NCBI GenBank assembly: GCA_945905765.1
Contig: CAMDPZ010000021.1
Span: 1 to 35,747 of the forward strand
DNA from: Nitrospira lenta
Lineage (GTDB): Bacteria; Nitrospirota; Nitrospiria; Nitrospirales; Nitrospiraceae
Length of the DNA stretch: 35,747 nt
Direction of reading: 5' to 3'
Shown here: positions 10,469 to 35,747 of the stretch, piece after piece
Layout: every line of letters starts with the position of its first letter
Position numbering within the stretch: the stretch's first letter is position 1
The notes under the pieces: model-generated
Seen by the model: the letters and a program-made list of their open reading frames with translations, nothing else
Database searches by the model: none
What the model was told of the DNA's origin: nothing
Program-made: the position numbers and the translations under genes

Positions 10469-10604
10469 GGTCTATCTGGTTCATCTGGTCTCTCTCGTCT
10501 GTCTGGTTGTCGGATCGGAGTTCCCACCAGGCGAACCAGATAGCCCAAAGAAACGAGACTGACCAGAGAGACAAGACAGACCAGATGAACCAGATGAACC
10601 CAAG
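10469..10604. repeat. 9-bp repeat array, copy C, containing the SDR start codon
   Basis: The left arm has 9-mers at 10469-10477, 10478-10486, 10487-10495 and 10496-10504 of the GGTCTATCT type. The centre carries CGGAGTTCCCACC. The right arm has eight 9-mers from 10533 to 10604 of the AGACCAGAT type, the last two reading GAACCAGAT and GAACCCAAG. The ATGs at 10585 and 10594 are created by the repeat. The arms are complementary and could fold back on each other. Confidence 0.85.
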
Positions 10605-29994: not shown

Positions 29995-30036
29995 GGATAC
30001 TACTCCGGTGTAAGGATGCTAGCTGTCGCGGGCGCC

Positions 30037-30066
30037 ATAATAAACGTTGGTAGCCTGCTTACACAA
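30037..30066 (-). promoter_or_regulatory. Possible promoter of fumC
   Basis: On the minus strand TTGTGT (30066-30061) and TATTAT (30042-30037) are 18 bp apart, 43 bp upstream of the fumC ATG. The -35 match is weak. The surrounding 29995-30327 gap holds this element, the inverted-repeat element at 30085-30207 and the hsp20 terminator; no gene is seen. Confidence 0.4.
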
Positions 30067-30084
30067 GAGTGTCGGCTGATTGAG

Positions 30085-30207
30085 AGGATGCTGAAAAAAG
30101 CCGTCAGCTGCGTTCTCGCCTTGAAAGCATCCTCAACGTAGCCAGGGGCTACGCCTCCGGTGCTTTCATCGTCTGCGGCCTTGCTGAACGGCCTTTTTGA
30201 GCATCCT
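30085..30207. repeat. Dispersed inverted-repeat element, copy 2
   Basis: A 123-bp palindromic element from AGGATGCTGAAAAAAGCC to GGCCTTTTTGAGCATCCT. It shares CGTTCTCGC, CTCAACGTA, CTGCGGCCTTGCTG and both ends with copy 1 at 11321-11442. It lies between the hsp20 terminator and the fumC promoter region. No coding capacity. Confidence 0.8.
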
Positions 30208-30276
30208 CAAGGTATTCCATCTGCAATGACTTTTCGTTGGCCGTCCAGGGGAATGGCCGGAGGAGGCTGAAAAAGA

Positions 30277-30300
30277 AGAGGCCCGCCGGAGCGGGCCTCT
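30277..30300 (-). terminator. Intrinsic terminator of hsp20
   Basis: AGAGGCCCGC and GCGGGCCTCT form a 10-bp GC-rich stem around a 4-base loop. On the minus strand TTCTTTTTC follows. It lies 28 bp after the small heat-shock gene's stop. Confidence 0.85.
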
Positions 30301-30327
30301 GTTCAAACAGGATGAGACAGTTGCGGA

Positions 30328-30783
30328 TCAGCCAACCGTCACTTCGATGGATTTGGGTTTCGCCTTCACGGACTTTGGCAGCTGGAGATTCAGGACTCCA
30401 TCCTTGAATTCCGCCTTCACCTTTGCTTCATCCACGAGGTCTGGCAAGGTGAAACTTCTGATGAAGCTGCCATAGGAGCGCTCCACCCGATGGTACTTCT
30501 TGCCCTTCTCTTCCTTCTCATATTTGCGCTCACCCTGAATCGTGAGGACTCCGTCTTCGACCGTCACCTTCACATCCTCTTTCTTTACGTCAGGGATTTC
30601 TGCTTTGATCTGGTACTCCCCTTCCGTTTCGCTGACATCGACGGAAGGCACCCAGTCGGCCACGATCATGGTCTCTTTGTTGGTGCCATTCGTCTGAGGC
30701 AGAGCCGGACGTCGAAACATCCAATTCAACCGACTCGATACATCTTCAAGGTCACGAAACGGATCCCACCGTACGAGTGTCAT
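30328..30783 (-). CDS. Small heat-shock protein, Hsp20/alpha-crystallin
   Basis: A 151-residue holdase chaperone from ATG 30783, with AGGAGG five bases upstream. A longer frame to 30843 is rejected. The N-terminal arm MTLVRWDPFRDLEDVSSRLNWMF is typical. The alpha-crystallin domain spans about 43-138, with AEIPDVKKEDVKVTVEDGVLTIQGER and the A-x-x-x-n-G-V-L segment FKDGVLNLQLPK. The C-terminal SIEV provides an I-x-V anchor for oligomers. It is transcribed from a region of 110 bp after citrate synthase and has its own terminator. Confidence 0.95.
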   Translation of the reverse strand: MTLVRWDPFRDLEDVSSRLNWMFRRPALPQTNGTNKETMIVADWVPSVDVSETEGEYQIKAEIPDVKKEDVKVTVEDGVLTIQGERKYEKEEKGKKYHRVERSYGSFIRSFTLPDLVDEAKVKAEFKDGVLNLQLPKSVKAKPKSIEVTVG

Positions 30784-30861
30784 AGAGACCTCCTTTGCAG
30801 TCCCGGTCATTATTCTCAGTAGTGTATGGGCGGCGCGCGCCACTTCGCCTGTCTGATGAAG

Positions 30862-30889
30862 GAGATAATCCTTGCTGCGGCAGAGTCAA
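30862..30889 (-). promoter_or_regulatory. Possible promoter of hsp20
   Basis: On the minus strand TTGACT (30889-30884) and TATCTC (30867-30862) are 16 bp apart, about 80 bp upstream of hsp20. It overlaps the citrate synthase stop region. No sigma-32 or CIRCE sequence was recognised. Confidence 0.35.
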
Positions 30890-30893
30890 GGGG

Positions 30894-32030
30894 CTATTGG
30901 CGCTGTTCGATCGGCAGGTAGGATCGACCATGTTCGCCGGAGTAAATCTGGTCCGGGCGGAACAGTTTATTTTCACGCAATTGCTCAAGCCAATGGGCCA
31001 GCCACCCGGAGACCCGGGCCATTGCGAAGAGCGGTGTGAAGAGATCGGTTTCGATACCCATCTTTTCGTAGATGATTCCGGAGTAAAAATCGACGTTGGG
31101 ATAAATCCCCTTTCCTTGTAACAGTTCTGCCGCAACCCTTTCGACTTCGAGGGCAATATTATAGAGGGGGGAGCTGCCGGACTCCGTGAAGAGTTGTTCG
31201 CAGAGACCTTGTACCACTGTCGCGCGGGGATCCTTGACCTTGTAGACCCGGTGACCGAAGCCCATCAGCCTCTGTTTCGTGCGGATCTGTTCTTCTAGGT
31301 ACGGGCGGGCCTTCTCAGGCTGACCGATCTCTTTCAGCATCTGCACGACTTCCTCATTGGCTCCGCCATGCAGCGGCCCCTTCAAGGCCCCGATGGAAGA
31401 GGCAACAACCGTATAGGGATCGGCCAATGTCGAGGCTGTGACCATCCCGGTAAAGGTTGAGGCATTCATCGTATGTTCTGCATGGAGGATCAGGCAGTCG
31501 TCGAACAGATCGGCCCACAAGGGAAGCGGCTCCGTTTCGGTCAGCATGTAGAGGAAGTTTTCTGAAAACCCGAGATCGTCGCGCGGTGGAATGTATTCGT
31601 TCCCCTGCCGCAGACGCGCCCAAGCTGCGACGAGGGTGGGCAGTTTGGCCACGAGGCGGACGGCAGACCAATAGTTATTCTCGATGTCCTGCACGTTTCG
31701 TCCGGGATAAAACATGCCCCGGGCGGCAACCGACGCCTGCAAGGCATCCATGGGATGACCCTGCTCCGGCAGACATTTCAGCAAATCGACGATTTTGAAC
31801 TTGATGCGGCGGTGATGGTCGATGTCTTCCTGCCATCGCGCGAGCTGCGCTTGCGTAGGGAGATGCCCGAACAGCAAGAGATAGGCCGTTTCGAGATAGG
31901 AGGATTTCAGGCAGAGCTCTTCGACTCGGATGCCGCGATATTCCAGCACCCCGCGCTGCCCGTCCACATCGCTGATGGAGGATTTGGCTGCTGGCACGCC
32001 GGCGAGCCCCGGCATAAAATCCTGTGGCAT
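30894..32030 (-). CDS. gltA: Citrate synthase
   Basis: A 378-residue enzyme of the short, archaeal/Gram-positive-like citrate synthase type, condensing acetyl-CoA and oxaloacetate. HAEHTMNAST is at 183-192, the substrate-binding H221 in GPLHGGANEEV, the catalytic H260 in GFGHRVYK, and the catalytic D314 in VDFYSG. All three catalytic residues are present. GAGGAG lies 8 bp before the ATG. A methylcitrate synthase activity cannot be excluded from sequence, but no prp genes are nearby and fumC is close. It diverges from the small secreted protein gene at 32170. Confidence 0.94.
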   Translation of the reverse strand: MPQDFMPGLAGVPAAKSSISDVDGQRGVLEYRGIRVEELCLKSSYLETAYLLLFGHLPTQAQLARWQEDIDHHRRIKFKIVDLLKCLPEQGHPMDALQASVAARGMFYPGRNVQDIENNYWSAVRLVAKLPTLVAAWARLRQGNEYIPPRDDLGFSENFLYMLTETEPLPLWADLFDDCLILHAEHTMNASTFTGMVTASTLADPYTVVASSIGALKGPLHGGANEEVVQMLKEIGQPEKARPYLEEQIRTKQRLMGFGHRVYKVKDPRATVVQGLCEQLFTESGSSPLYNIALEVERVAAELLQGKGIYPNVDFYSGIIYEKMGIETDLFTPLFAMARVSGWLAHWLEQLRENKLFRPDQIYSGEHGRSYLPIEQRQ

Positions 32031-32169
32031 GATCGCGCTCCTCTACCTAAGTGGTAAGATATATGACGCGTGACGAAAGTTTAGCATGTTCGGCGAGCAA
32101 GATCTTGAAATGACTCCGGCCGATTGGCATACTGAGACCGGTCGCGGCCTGGGAATCGGAGAAACGTGT

Positions 32170-32547
32170 ATGTCCCTTCTGCTGTTGCTCTTCAGCGTCA
32201 TCGCGATGGGGTCAGCCTCTCTGGCTCAGGCAGACGGAGAGGTTCTCGGTTTTGCCGTGGTGAGCGAGGCGCCGAAAGATAAGGCGCGGGTGGCGGCAAA
32301 GGTTTCGGTGAATGACGCCGTGTCGGACATGAAGCTTCTCGCGTCGGACACGATTCTGAATAATCTGATTTGGAAGAAACTCGAAATCTGCCATGCTATG
32401 AAGCTGGAAGGCTATAAAGTTGCGGAAGGCTTTCAGGTGGTCACGGTGCACGTGATCGACGCCAGCATGTTGCCGATGTCGCTTCAGTCTTTTGCAGGCG
32501 ATTGCTTGATCAAGAAAGCGCTGGAGATCGCGCCGATGGTGGACTAG
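32170..32547 (+). CDS. Small secreted protein, unknown
   Basis: A 125-residue protein from ATG 32170, with GGAG eight bases upstream. A longer frame from 32086 is rejected because the signal peptide begins at MSLLLLLFSVIAMGSASLAQA, with cleavage expected before DGEV. The mature part has VVSEAPKDKARVAAKVSVNDAVSDMKLLASDTILNNLIWKKLE (split here by function only), then CHAMKLEGYKVAEGFQVVTVHVIDASMLPM. Two cysteines in the mature region (ICHAM and GDCLI) could form a disulfide. I do not recognise the family. A periplasmic location is likely. Confidence 0.75.
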   Translation: MSLLLLLFSVIAMGSASLAQADGEVLGFAVVSEAPKDKARVAAKVSVNDAVSDMKLLASDTILNNLIWKKLEICHAMKLEGYKVAEGFQVVTVHVIDASMLPMSLQSFAGDCLIKKALEIAPMVD

Positions 32548-32582
32548 CCGGATAGCAGAGCGTGACTAGCGAGACGCGAGAG

Positions 32583-32641
32583 TTCGACGTCCGAAGTTCG
32601 ATGTTTCCAGAACGTCGAACCTAGAACTTGGAACTTCGACA
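32583..32641. repeat. GTTCGA-type imperfect repeat reaching into a gene end
   Basis: GTTCGACG (32583-32590) and CGTCGAAC (32613-32620) are inverted copies. GAAGTTCGA, GAACTT and GAACTTCGAC repeat around them on both strands. The right half runs into the gene at 32621-33004 and encodes its last residues (SSKF) and the stop codon. Confidence 0.7.
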
Positions 32642-33004
32642 TTCCGGGCAGGCAGCGGGTTCTTCCGGCGCGTCACATTCATCGGCAGTGAGAGGGAACA
32701 GTTGTTCGCATTGCCGGCAGGGGCGAATTTCGAAGTAGGCGATTCCCTTGTCGTCGATGTCGGTCGGTAAGAGCAGTTCCAGCGGGTCATAGCCGATTGC
32801 GCCGCCATCTGAGAACTTGACGAGTGCCAGGCGATCGTTAAAGACCTCGAAGATCCCTTCCTGACCTTTTCTCGCCAAGACATGTCCCAGGACGAAGACC
32901 GGTTGTCCTTTTCGTTTCGTGCGGAGGTCTCGTAGGGTATGCTGGCTGTCCGTGGCGCAGGAGAATTGGCCGGTAGAGCTCGTTCCGAAGATGGGTGTCA
33001 GCAT
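32621..33004 (-). CDS. Unknown protein with C-terminal zinc-ribbon-like cysteines
   Basis: A 127-residue protein not recognised. The middle GQPVFVLGHVLARKGQEGIFEVFNDRLALVKFSDGG looks like a small beta-barrel. The C-terminal part has two CxxC pairs, CRQC and CPEC, separated by about 23 residues (with one further cysteine between them), a spacing compatible with a zinc ribbon. No signal peptide. The final codons and stop come from a dispersed repeat. A nucleic-acid or protein-binding role is possible but not shown. It diverges from the ArsC-like gene. Confidence 0.7.
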   Translation of the reverse strand: MLTPIFGTSSTGQFSCATDSQHTLRDLRTKRKGQPVFVLGHVLARKGQEGIFEVFNDRLALVKFSDGGAIGYDPLELLLPTDIDDKGIAYFEIRPCRQCEQLFPLTADECDAPEEPAACPECRSSKF

Positions 33005-33035
33005 AAATGGGCGTTCATGTGAATAGATTGAGGAT

Positions 33036-33065
33036 GATGTATCACAGGGGTAAAAATGGCGTCAA
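33036..33065 (-). promoter_or_regulatory. Possible promoter of the zinc-ribbon-like gene
   Basis: On the minus strand TTGACG (33065-33060) and TACATC (33041-33036) are 18 bp apart, 31 bp upstream of the ATG at 33004. Confidence 0.4.
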
Positions 33066-33097
33066 GGTAAGCAGGACGCTGAGACAAGGAGTGTAGC

Positions 33098-33448
33098 ATG
33101 GCCGAGGTAACGATTTATCAAAAACCGACCTGTAGCACCTGCCGTCAGGCGGTGCAGTTGTTAAAGGAAAGCGGCCAACCCTTCACGGCCGTCAACTACT
33201 ACGAGCAGCCCTTCACCAAGGCTCAGCTCAAGGGCCTCTTGAAGAAGGCGGGATTGGCGCCGAAAGACATTCTTCGCACCAAAGAAGAGATCTATAAGGA
33301 GCTCGGGTTAGCCAAAAAGACCCTCTCGGATGATGAATGGCTCGATCTGATGATCGCCCACCCAGACCTCATTCAACGTCCGATTGTCGCAAAGGGCGAA
33401 CAGGTGATCCTGGCCAGACCGGCTGAATCGGTCAAAGAATTACTGTAA
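33098..33448 (+). CDS. ArsC/Spx-family thioredoxin-fold protein
   Basis: A 116-residue protein with VTIYQKPTCSTCRQAVQLLKE at the N-terminus, i.e. a CxxC at 12-15, and the family's late RPIVAKGEQVILARP. The ArsC/Spx superfamily includes glutaredoxin-coupled arsenate reductases and the RNA-polymerase-binding regulator Spx. ArsC proper has a lone cysteine, whereas Spx-like members have CxxC as here, yet no other Spx feature can be confirmed. No ars genes are nearby. AAGGAG lies before the ATG. It converges with rnd, leaving 7 bp between stops. Confidence 0.88.
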   Translation: MAEVTIYQKPTCSTCRQAVQLLKESGQPFTAVNYYEQPFTKAQLKGLLKKAGLAPKDILRTKEEIYKELGLAKKTLSDDEWLDLMIAHPDLIQRPIVAKGEQVILARPAESVKELL

Positions 33449-33455
33449 CTACGCG

Positions 33456-34670
33456 TCAGTTCGCAGTCTTGGAGAGATCCTCCTGCGCCATCTTGAGGGC
33501 GCCGGAGGTTCGGTCGACCGTAATGGTGACCGCTCCATCCAAGACTTTGAGCAACAGATCTCCTGCCAGTTGCCGTCGCCAGCCCCGGAGGATGGGCACA
33601 TCGAGGGTGGCCCGATTCTGCTTCGCTTCCACGAGCGTTTGGAGGTCGGAGCTGGTGGCGAGCATGGTGGGGGCAATCCCCTCCTCTGCGGCGCGGGCCT
33701 TCAGCACGGCTTGCAAGAGCTCGACGATGCCGGTGGATTCAGGATCCGGATTCCGTTCGCGAGGGACTTCCGGCCAGGAGGTCGGCGGGAGCGCCAAGGC
33801 CGAGGTGATGGTGCCTAACAGTTGCTCTCCATGGCGATCCACCTCCGAAGAATGAACGCCGCGAAGTCCACGGAGCTCGCTGACCGATTTGGGCGGATGG
33901 CGCGCGAGTTGGAGAAGCACCTCGTCCCGCATGACCCGCCCGCGCGGCACGTTTCGCCTTCTGGCTTCCGCCTCTCGCCAGGCAGCCAATTCACGAAGCA
34001 CCGCCGCCCCTTTAGGCTTGAGCGTATCCCACCCGCGAATACGCTGATAGCGTTCTTGCGGTTCCCGACTTTTCTCTCCCACCGCTGTTTCCAGCCGCGC
34101 AAATTCCTCTCCGACCCATTCCAGCCGACCGAGCGAGCTCAGACGGTCCTGTAAATGCGTATGGATCGAGAGGAGAAACTCGACATCCTCCAAGGCGTAG
34201 GCAATCTGGTCATCCGAGAGGGGTCGCGCACTCCAGTTGGTAAAGGTATGGGCCTTGGCCAACTTTGTGCCATGGAGTCGTTGGACCAGGTTCGCATAGG
34301 CCACCTGAGCTCCGTACCCGACCATCGCTGCGGCGATCTGTGTGTCGAAAAATGGCTTCGGGATCTGCCCCGCATGGGTGGCAAAGAGATCGAGGTCTTG
34401 CCGCCCCGCATGGACGATCTTTTCAATCTTGGTATCGCAGATGAGCTCCCAAAAGGCGTCGAGCGATCCCTTGGCCTGGACGGCGGGAAAGTCGATGACG
34501 GCAGCGGTCGTGGCGGTGGCGACTTGGATCAGTTCGAGTCGCGGGACGAAGGTGTCTTCCCCGACGAATTCCGTATCCAGGGCCAGCCGAGAGCTTTGCT
34601 TCAGCGTCAGGCACAGGGTTTCAAGGGCAGACTGGTCGGTTACATACAGCATCGGTGGTTTGGGTGTCAC
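33456..34670 (-). CDS. rnd: Ribonuclease D
   Basis: A 404-residue 3'-5' exoribonuclease for tRNA 3'-end maturation, from GTG 34670 (398 residues from ATG 34652). The DEDDy active site is visible as DTEFVGEDTF (Exo I), HAGRQDLDLF (Exo II) and YALEDVEFL (Exo III with Y and D). An HRDC domain follows at about 220-290 (LKPKGAAVLRELAAWREAEARRRN). The C-terminal 100 residues are longer than in E. coli and probably form a second HRDC-like domain. It begins 7 bp after the J-domain gene, with which it is probably co-transcribed. Confidence 0.94.
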   Translation of the reverse strand: MTPKPPMLYVTDQSALETLCLTLKQSSRLALDTEFVGEDTFVPRLELIQVATATTAAVIDFPAVQAKGSLDAFWELICDTKIEKIVHAGRQDLDLFATHAGQIPKPFFDTQIAAAMVGYGAQVAYANLVQRLHGTKLAKAHTFTNWSARPLSDDQIAYALEDVEFLLSIHTHLQDRLSSLGRLEWVGEEFARLETAVGEKSREPQERYQRIRGWDTLKPKGAAVLRELAAWREAEARRRNVPRGRVMRDEVLLQLARHPPKSVSELRGLRGVHSSEVDRHGEQLLGTITSALALPPTSWPEVPRERNPDPESTGIVELLQAVLKARAAEEGIAPTMLATSSDLQTLVEAKQNRATLDVPILRGWRRQLAGDLLLKVLDGAVTITVDRTSGALKMAQEDLSKTAN

Positions 34671-34677
34671 AGGTCTC

Positions 34678-35310
34678 TCATTCGGTTGGATTGTAAGTAT
34701 GGTCAGGGGATCGCGGAGGCTCCACATTGCTGAGGCTCAAGTATTCTTTCAAAAACTGATAAGCCTCCAGCATGCGGCGTAATTCCGGCTCGGCGCTACG
34801 GTCTCCGTTATTCGAGTCGGGATGGAGTTGCTTGGCCTTCTGGCGGAACGATGCGGTGACTTCGGCGAGCGAACTGCCGAATTCCACGCCCATGGCCGCA
34901 TAGGCGTCCATGGCATTGTTGATGCCGCTCATTCCTTGCGAAAGGTCGCCGCCGCCCCCGCTTGCAGCTTTCAACATATCGGCCAGGCTGACTTTCTTGC
35001 GCCGGCGACGGGGTCGCTCCCGAATCTCGCTATCGAAGTCGTCCCAGCGGTCTTCGACGAACTCCAGGCGGGATTCCAGCCGCATGGCGCCGGAGAGATC
35101 GCGGATCTCCGCCAGCTCATCTTCGATCTGGATCAGAGACTTGATGATTTCCTCCAGCCCCTCTTCGACGCGGAAGAAACTGTCGACCCGCTCCTGCATC
35201 ATCGTATCGACGGCGAGCTCCAGACTTTCCTCAGCCTTCGGGCGCAAGGAATCGATCCGTCGTCTCATGCCGTTTTGAAACTTGATGTATTTGCTTTGCG
35301 AAAACGCCAT
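34678..35310 (-). CDS. Protein with C-terminal J domain
   Basis: A 210-residue protein from ATG 35310. A long helical N-terminal region, with coiled-coil-like stretches AEESLELAVDTMMQERVDSFFRVEEGLEEIIKSLIQIEDELAEIRDL (shown only to mark its extent, residues about 25-71), is followed by a basic patch RPRRRRKK at about 104-111. The C-terminal J domain has FRQKAKQLHPDSNNGD with the HPD motif that stimulates DnaK ATPase. This is a J-domain co-chaperone with an unusual architecture, the J domain being at the end. A GGGAGA site lies about 12 bp before the ATG, rather far. Client and partner are unknown. Confidence 0.82.
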   Translation of the reverse strand: MAFSQSKYIKFQNGMRRRIDSLRPKAEESLELAVDTMMQERVDSFFRVEEGLEEIIKSLIQIEDELAEIRDLSGAMRLESRLEFVEDRWDDFDSEIRERPRRRRKKVSLADMLKAASGGGGDLSQGMSGINNAMDAYAAMGVEFGSSLAEVTASFRQKAKQLHPDSNNGDRSAEPELRRMLEAYQFLKEYLSLSNVEPPRSPDHTYNPTE

Positions 35311-35414
35311 ATGAACCAGCTTTTCTCCCGGAGGCGCATTGTAGCACAGCCTGGTCGCAGGCCTGAAGGGCGGTGGGCTCTGCCGGCATTCCATCAAGAA
35401 AGCGAAATAGGCGG

Positions 35415-35443
35415 TTGACAATAGGGCCTGTTTTCGATACCGT
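35415..35443 (+). promoter_or_regulatory. Sigma-70-like promoter of the Lys/Glu-rich secreted peptide
   Basis: TTGACA (35415-35420, exact consensus) and TACCGT (35438-35443) are 17 bp apart. They lie about 70 bp upstream of the gene at 35511. Confidence 0.55.
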
Positions 35444-35510
35444 AGCGCCCGTTTGCCCTATGTGAAGGGCAGGCAATATTCACACTAACATTTAAAGGGG
35501 GTGACATATT

Positions 35511-35738
35511 ATGAAGAGCATCTTGATGGCAATCATGGCAGTGGCAGTGGCAGTGACGTTCAGCGCTCCTTCCTTCGCTGAAGAGAAGAAGGCGGAGAAG
35601 AAGGACGAGAAGAAGGGCGGCCACGTCCTCGTGTACGGCGAAGAGAAGAAAGAGAAGAAGGACGAGAAGAAGGGCGGCCACGCTGACACGTTCGGCGATA
35701 AGAAGGACGAGAAGAAGAAGGACGAGAAGGGCAAGTAA
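35511..35738 (+). CDS. Small Lys/Glu-rich secreted peptide with internal repeats
   Basis: A 75-residue protein with a clear signal peptide (MKSILMAIMAVAVAVTFSAPSFA, cleaved before EEKK) leaving a mature part of about 52 residues. GGGGGTGA precedes the ATG at good spacing. The mature part repeats a unit of about 19 residues: EEKKAEKKDEKKGGHVLVYG, EEKKEKKDEKKGGHADTFG, then DKKDEKKKDEKGK. It has no cysteines. Each unit carries one histidine after GG. The DNA repeats too (GAAGAGAAGAAG and GACGAGAAGAAGGGCGGCCA). Function unknown: periplasmic or surface-bound charged peptide is as far as the sequence goes. Confidence 0.78.
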   Translation: MKSILMAIMAVAVAVTFSAPSFAEEKKAEKKDEKKGGHVLVYGEEKKEKKDEKKGGHADTFGDKKDEKKKDEKGK

Positions 35739-35747
35739 TCACGACAC

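Follow-up and report, generated by a model that had tools for sequence, protein, structure and literature searches.

Small periplasmic proteins under sigma54 control are known from the ZraP type, and a hydrophilicity index over 1 is one of the criteria that define hydrophilins. A glycine content over 6% is also a criterion for that class (PMC4190154). Asr of E. coli is a small, disordered and highly inducible acid-shock protein of the periplasm, described as a disordered chaperone that supports the integrity of the outer membrane (PMC10746267). The open reading frame at the very end of the Nitrospira lenta window (the whole stretch of 35,747 nucleotides that was analysed) is a genuine gene for a tiny putative secreted protein, and its features are collected in Table 1.

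Table 1. Features at and beside the gene, in positions of the window
Feature	Positions	Strand	Description
RNase D-like gene	33456-34727	-	Neighbour at locus A by flank comparison; Pfam PF01612 and PF00570
DnaJ-domain ORF	34678-35421	-	Neighbour at locus A, adjacency kept at many A loci; Pfam PF00226
Locus A promoter	35415-35443	+	TTGACA (35415-35420), 17-nt spacer, TACCGT (35438-35443)
5'UTR dyad	35451-35474	+	GTTTGCCCT-atgtga-AGGGCAGGC
Shine-Dalgarno sequence	35495-35504	+	AAGGGGGTGA, strong, before ATG; alike in aligned A loci
Gene	35511-35738	+	75 codons, 75 amino acids; very end of contig
Predicted signal peptide	35511-35579	+	23 codons, MKSILMAIMAVAVAVTFSAPSFA; Sec type, by eye
Repeat unit 1	35580-35639	+	EEKKAEKKDEKKGGHVLVYG
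Repeat unit 2	35640-35696	+	EEKKEKKDEKKGGHADTFG
Short unit 3 and stop codon	35697-35738	+	DKKDEKKKDEKGK

The window is an entire contig (C21) of a draft genome of 2.33 Mb in 115 contigs, and only 9 bases separate the stop codon from its end. Contig C94 starts within the same gene, overlaps the end of the window and supplies the 3' flank, where a terminator-like dyad is followed by a gene taken by eye for DUF255. A second, near-identical copy is found in the same genome (C1:6659-6886), its product being the same protein with one additional alanine, and the assembly probably broke inside the window gene because of this copy. The first-pass annotation had described a secreted peptide with a mature part of about 52 residues built from repeats. 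Secretion is borne out as a prediction by the Sec-type signal peptide recognised by eye, and the repeat architecture is confirmed: the mature chain has 52 residues in two full units and one shorter unit, and TRF reports an array with a period of 57 bp, 2.3 copies and a score of 180.

Elsewhere in the window, TRF marks short tandem repeats whose units measure 9 bp (and 18 bp) at 684-790, 1566-1593, 2432-2479 and 10534-10600, with the related unit types TGGTCTATC, TCTATCTCG, CAGATAGAC and ACCAGATGA. An ORF of 153 amino acids (32086-32547, + strand) contains a signal-like hydrophobic stretch and has no Pfam match at E<=0.01. A plasmid link was considered for positions 30000-35747 and rejected, the one match being of 54 bases and lying elsewhere in the query.

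A search of 100 genomes, counting that of the window, finds the family gene in 49, and the public genome collection holds at least 53 loci, 52 of them with titles naming Nitrospira, Nitrospirae, Nitrospiraceae or Nitrospirota and one titled 'uncultured Nitrosospira'. Run over 295 genomes from the phylum, a profile of 23 sequences matches 80, 74 of these within the window's own family; the other six matches are marginal (E 1.7e-4 to 9.1e-4) and were taken for low-complexity chance and not for true members. Among Nitrospiraceae genomes that are at least 90% complete, 113 of 120 match (107 at E<=1e-15, the remaining six weakly), and seven give no match. Judged by these searches, this is an undescribed protein family that is nearly confined to Nitrospiraceae. 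A Pfam scan to E 1 returned DUF6520 alone (E 0.17, under the cut-off), and nine NCBIfam models were all under their own cut-offs, the best with E 0.0039 and 17.7 bits against a cut-off of 47. Searches of the open-access literature on Nitrospira brought up no account of the family among the papers listed; Fig. 6 of one paper omits hypothetical proteins (PMC8115632).

The mature proteins, 84 of which are distinct, are dominated by charged residues (median 61%) that are gathered in blocks. Two blocks are found in 8 proteins, three in 66 and four in 10, which upholds the earlier suggestion that the number of units can change. In 77 proteins the net charge lies between +1 and +5; it is 0 in five and negative in two. 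Binding of nucleic acid, another early proposal, looks unlikely for a predicted exported protein with so small a net charge. An AlphaFold2 model computed from the single sequence without alignment has a mean pLDDT of 60.7 and places one helix at residues 3-17, in the signal; the mature part has a pLDDT of about 52-60 and no structure in this model of low confidence.

The regularly placed histidines had been proposed to bind metals, and the GGH steps might hold copper, nickel or zinc in the periplasm. Of the 177 positions directly after K[GSV]G, 137 carry histidine and the others mostly lysine, tyrosine or glutamine, and histidine is present in 74 of the 84 distinct mature proteins. The ligands are nevertheless not conserved in all members, since ten of the 84 proteins contain no histidine; cysteine is absent from all 84, as is tryptophan, and no metal gene was recognised among the compared flanks. 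The histidines thus stand as a common feature, metal binding as a shared core function is weakened by the ten proteins that lack them, and we regard a metal-binding peptide as improbable. Still further from what the data suggest is a RiPP precursor (ribosomally synthesised and post-translationally modified peptide) with repeated cores. The protein is small and repeated with a leader-like N-terminus, and one NCBIfam model of a RiPP precursor gives a weak match under its cut-off (E 2.5), but the N-terminus is a Sec-type signal peptide in place of a RiPP leader, there is no cysteine, and no maturation enzyme was recognised beside A or B in the parts of the flanks that were scanned. This explanation is very improbable.

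Comparisons of the flanking regions show that most of the fetched copies sit at one of two syntenic loci, although many loci come from close relatives and their counts are not independent events. Locus A, which holds the window copy, lies between the RNase D and DnaJ-domain genes on one side and a DUF255-like gene on the other; the true start of the DnaJ-domain ORF is probably downstream of its first codon. Locus B is bordered by putative uracil-DNA glycosylase and fabI genes and, at its opposite end, by putative NUDIX and gcvT genes. The names DUF255, UDG, fabI, NUDIX, gcvT, FKBP and CCA-adding enzyme were assigned to genes by eye. N. defluvii and members of several genera have both loci, which makes the pair older than the genus of the window. 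Near a gene resembling the CCA-adding enzyme lies a third site, C, and there is also a divergent group D. Downstream of the family gene at locus C comes a small gene, lipoprotein-like and carrying a fibronectin type III domain (Pfam PF00041 in L036; L049 and L100 by eye). The D member L137 adjoins a trehalose-phosphatase gene (Pfam PF02358), as does L110 by eye. Two copies are aberrant: L115 (G011, locus A) is shortened to 34 amino acids by an early stop, and L132 (G003, locus B) runs into unrelated sequence, perhaps through misassembly.

If the two loci had evolved separately, the A and B copies of one genome would be no closer to each other than A and B copies taken from different genomes. 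Over 18 author-picked genome pairs, likeness is higher within than between genomes for the mature protein (0.887 against 0.801), for its nucleotides (0.900 against 0.843) and for its synonymous codons (0.845 against 0.799), each with p=5e-5, the smallest value that 20,000 permutations allow, in a comparison where short-read assembly may blur near-identical copies of draft genomes. The set excludes G003, G008, G011 and G018, where a copy is cut, short or misassembled, as well as G033, G044 and G048, whose second copy was not fetched, and others in which the second copy is absent, unfetched or of unclear class. The excess is unchanged after removal of four near-duplicate genomes. Synonymous codons of the signal peptide also show it (0.748 against 0.680, p=0.001) because the whole coding sequence is alike in some genomes.

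From the N. defluvii clade 12 genomes including G059 were fetched, ten with both copies. In these ten, a genome's own A and B genes are 63% alike in signal-peptide DNA and 94% alike in mature DNA, with 61% upstream and 57% downstream, while A genes compared across the clade are 94% alike in both the signal-peptide and the mature part. In N. defluvii itself, a single-contig genome, the likeness sets in about three codons ahead of the putative cleavage site and runs to near the stop codon. In G020, G015 and G000 it covers nearly the whole coding sequence, between flanks that are about 55-65% alike. Among the 36 genes of the 18 picked genomes, the nearest sequence is that of the own partner in 11 cases by nucleotide and in 6 by synonymous codons. 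These sequence comparisons show that the mature coding regions of A and B undergo concerted evolution, which is episodic, while the flanks stay locus-specific.

Parallel selection together with shared codon bias might produce the same likeness in place of gene conversion, as the protein is of low complexity and uses few codon types. Within the N. defluvii clade the excess is significant for mature protein and nucleotides (p about 2e-4) and weak for synonymous codons (0.852 against 0.838, p=0.09), with none in the signal peptide, and a locus-specific form of B, APKMVQMINA, is retained in G014, G022 and G031. Against this stand the synonymous excess that holds over the 18 genomes and a likeness that is bounded near the cleavage site and the stop codon or by the coding sequence, and parallel selection is in our judgement an unlikely source of the pattern.

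The two loci also differ in their promoters. All 182 fetched loci, 176 of them with the gene, were assigned to classes from their flanks and nothing else, and upstream regions that were identical were counted once; L081, which matches both flank sets, is shown apart, and the count leaves out L003 and L127, where the contig cuts the gene, and L030, L134 and L078, which have too little upstream sequence. The known consensus sequences of IHF and sigma54 were used. A sigma54-type core, GGCA-N6-TTGC, is present at all 60 distinct B loci, at none of 34 A loci and at 10 of 15 other loci; group D accounts for the five that lack it. The pattern TTGAC[AT]-N15-19-TA..[GC]T is found at 30 of 34 A loci, 1 of 60 B loci and none of the 15 others. 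In the window, TACCGT agrees with TATAAT in three of six positions. The promoter and ribosome site of its own that the first-pass annotation had given to the gene are thus borne out, with the promoter type kept at those 30 distinct A loci. An IHF-like site occurs in 27 of 60 distinct B loci, at about -120 as placed from hand-picked B loci. Markov shuffles of hand-picked lists, in which group C (11 loci) included L096 and L143 that are B in the full count, give 0.23/45 for the sigma54 core and 0.20/45 for the IHF-like site; a slightly wider A-type pattern is found at 22 of 25 hand-picked loci against 0.20/25 in shuffles. There are two kinds of promoter as read from these motifs, sigma70-type at A and sigma54-type at B, and rpoN was found in the window's genome.

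Farther upstream, B and C share the block TGAGGCGGTTTAGC...CATTCTGCCACAG (alignment of 35 loci, 27 B and 8 C). A strict two-part pattern of this region has four matches in 12 genomes, all of them about 190-220 nucleotides before a family gene; it has no match in eight of the 12, the window's own included, and none in the reversed control. The inner palindrome TTYTGCCACAGAA is found in two places in seven genomes, both upstream of a family gene as judged by coordinates, and once in the reversed control. The shorter YGGCAY-N5-TTGCT was rejected as a regulon marker on its own, with six matches in the window's genome against four in the reversed control. Most A, B and C messages would, from their predicted starts, begin with a short dyad: the best stem has a mean score of 9.2 in A, 8.6 in B and 9.1 in C, and of 6.8, 6.8 and 6.5 in shuffled sequences. 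Several members, including B of the N. defluvii clade, have weak dyads only. Among A relatives the arms differ yet stay complementary, a covariation noted by eye, and the dyad in the window is likely to be an RNA hairpin or an operator.

Taken together, the gene probably encodes an undescribed cell-envelope protein that is important to the Nitrospira group. The strong matches in 107 of 120 genomes (E<=1e-15), the apparently dedicated upstream block and the copies kept alike point to a dependence of the lineage on this protein. For its function we tentatively favour, by analogy and with somewhat less than even confidence, a small exported, disordered polyampholyte typical of Nitrospiraceae that protects against stress like a hydrophilin or Asr. 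Locus A with its sigma70-type promoter would give a basal supply, and locus B, activated through sigma54, would add an inducible supply of nearly the same protein. The protein would be exported and abundant in the periplasm or at the surface, where alternating charged blocks and short hydrophobic linkers might protect the outer membrane or proteins of the envelope against osmotic, pH or similar stress. The trehalose-phosphatase neighbour of the divergent relative L137 is a weak hint of osmotic stress. The neighbouring genes otherwise give no pointer to stress, which counts against a protectant.

The main rival to a protectant is a polyampholyte of the cell surface or matrix, released or coating the outer membrane, that binds flocs or biofilm through charge pairing. 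Export is predicted here as well, and the sigma54-type promoter of locus B would tie the protein to other exterior functions, with which sigma54 has been connected (PMC3162934). On the other hand no anchor, sorting signal or cysteine was seen, one copy has a sigma70-type promoter, and the sole neighbour of adhesive type that was seen is the fibronectin type III gene at the locus C copies (by Pfam in L036 only). A surface role, which the first-pass annotation had also named, deserves consideration, although we hold it to be unlikely.

The stress protectant, which remains the preferred reading, may be set in a wider frame. The periplasm of Nitrospira is wide. In many habitats nitrite oxidation and comammox are the work of Nitrospira, and little is known about their envelope. 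Their nitrite oxidoreductase has a periplasmic orientation (PMC8115632). It is conceivable, though rather doubtful, that the family is a lineage-defining periplasmic polyampholyte made in bulk, with nearly one mature protein supplied from two loci by two RNA polymerase holoenzymes, maintained by gene conversion and served by a near-dedicated sigma54 enhancer, and that it could be crowding or scaffold material facing nitrite oxidoreductase. Gene conversion would then homogenise the copies and could break off close to the point where the signal peptide is cleaved, and the enhancer of the sigma54 copy would mark almost only the family gene. PF09459 was tried as a marker of nitrite oxidoreductase and cannot discriminate, being present in 120 of 120 genomes. 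The strong matches in 107 of 120 genomes (E<=1e-15), the apparently dedicated upstream block and the copies kept alike point to a dependence of the lineage on this protein.

Compared with the described systems, the Nitrospira protein resembles each of them in part. Like ZraP-type proteins it is small and predicted to be exported, with a sigma54-type promoter at locus B, but the Pfam scan shows no likeness to them and the second copy has a sigma70-type promoter. With the hydrophilins and LEA-like proteins it shares composition and predicted disorder: taking -GRAVY as the hydrophilicity index, 82 of the 84 distinct mature proteins have glycine >6% and an index >1, and the window protein has 13% glycine and an index of 2.36. 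Unlike hydrophilins, it is predicted to be exported and is built of K/E blocks, and hydrophilins are a composition class to which many unrelated proteins belong and not a homology family. Like Asr, the Nitrospira protein is small and would be an exported, disordered chain, to judge by a signal peptide recognised by eye and a low-confidence single-sequence model; unlike Asr, with which it shares no Pfam family in the Pfam scan, it alternates acidic and basic blocks and has two loci and a sigma54-type promoter.
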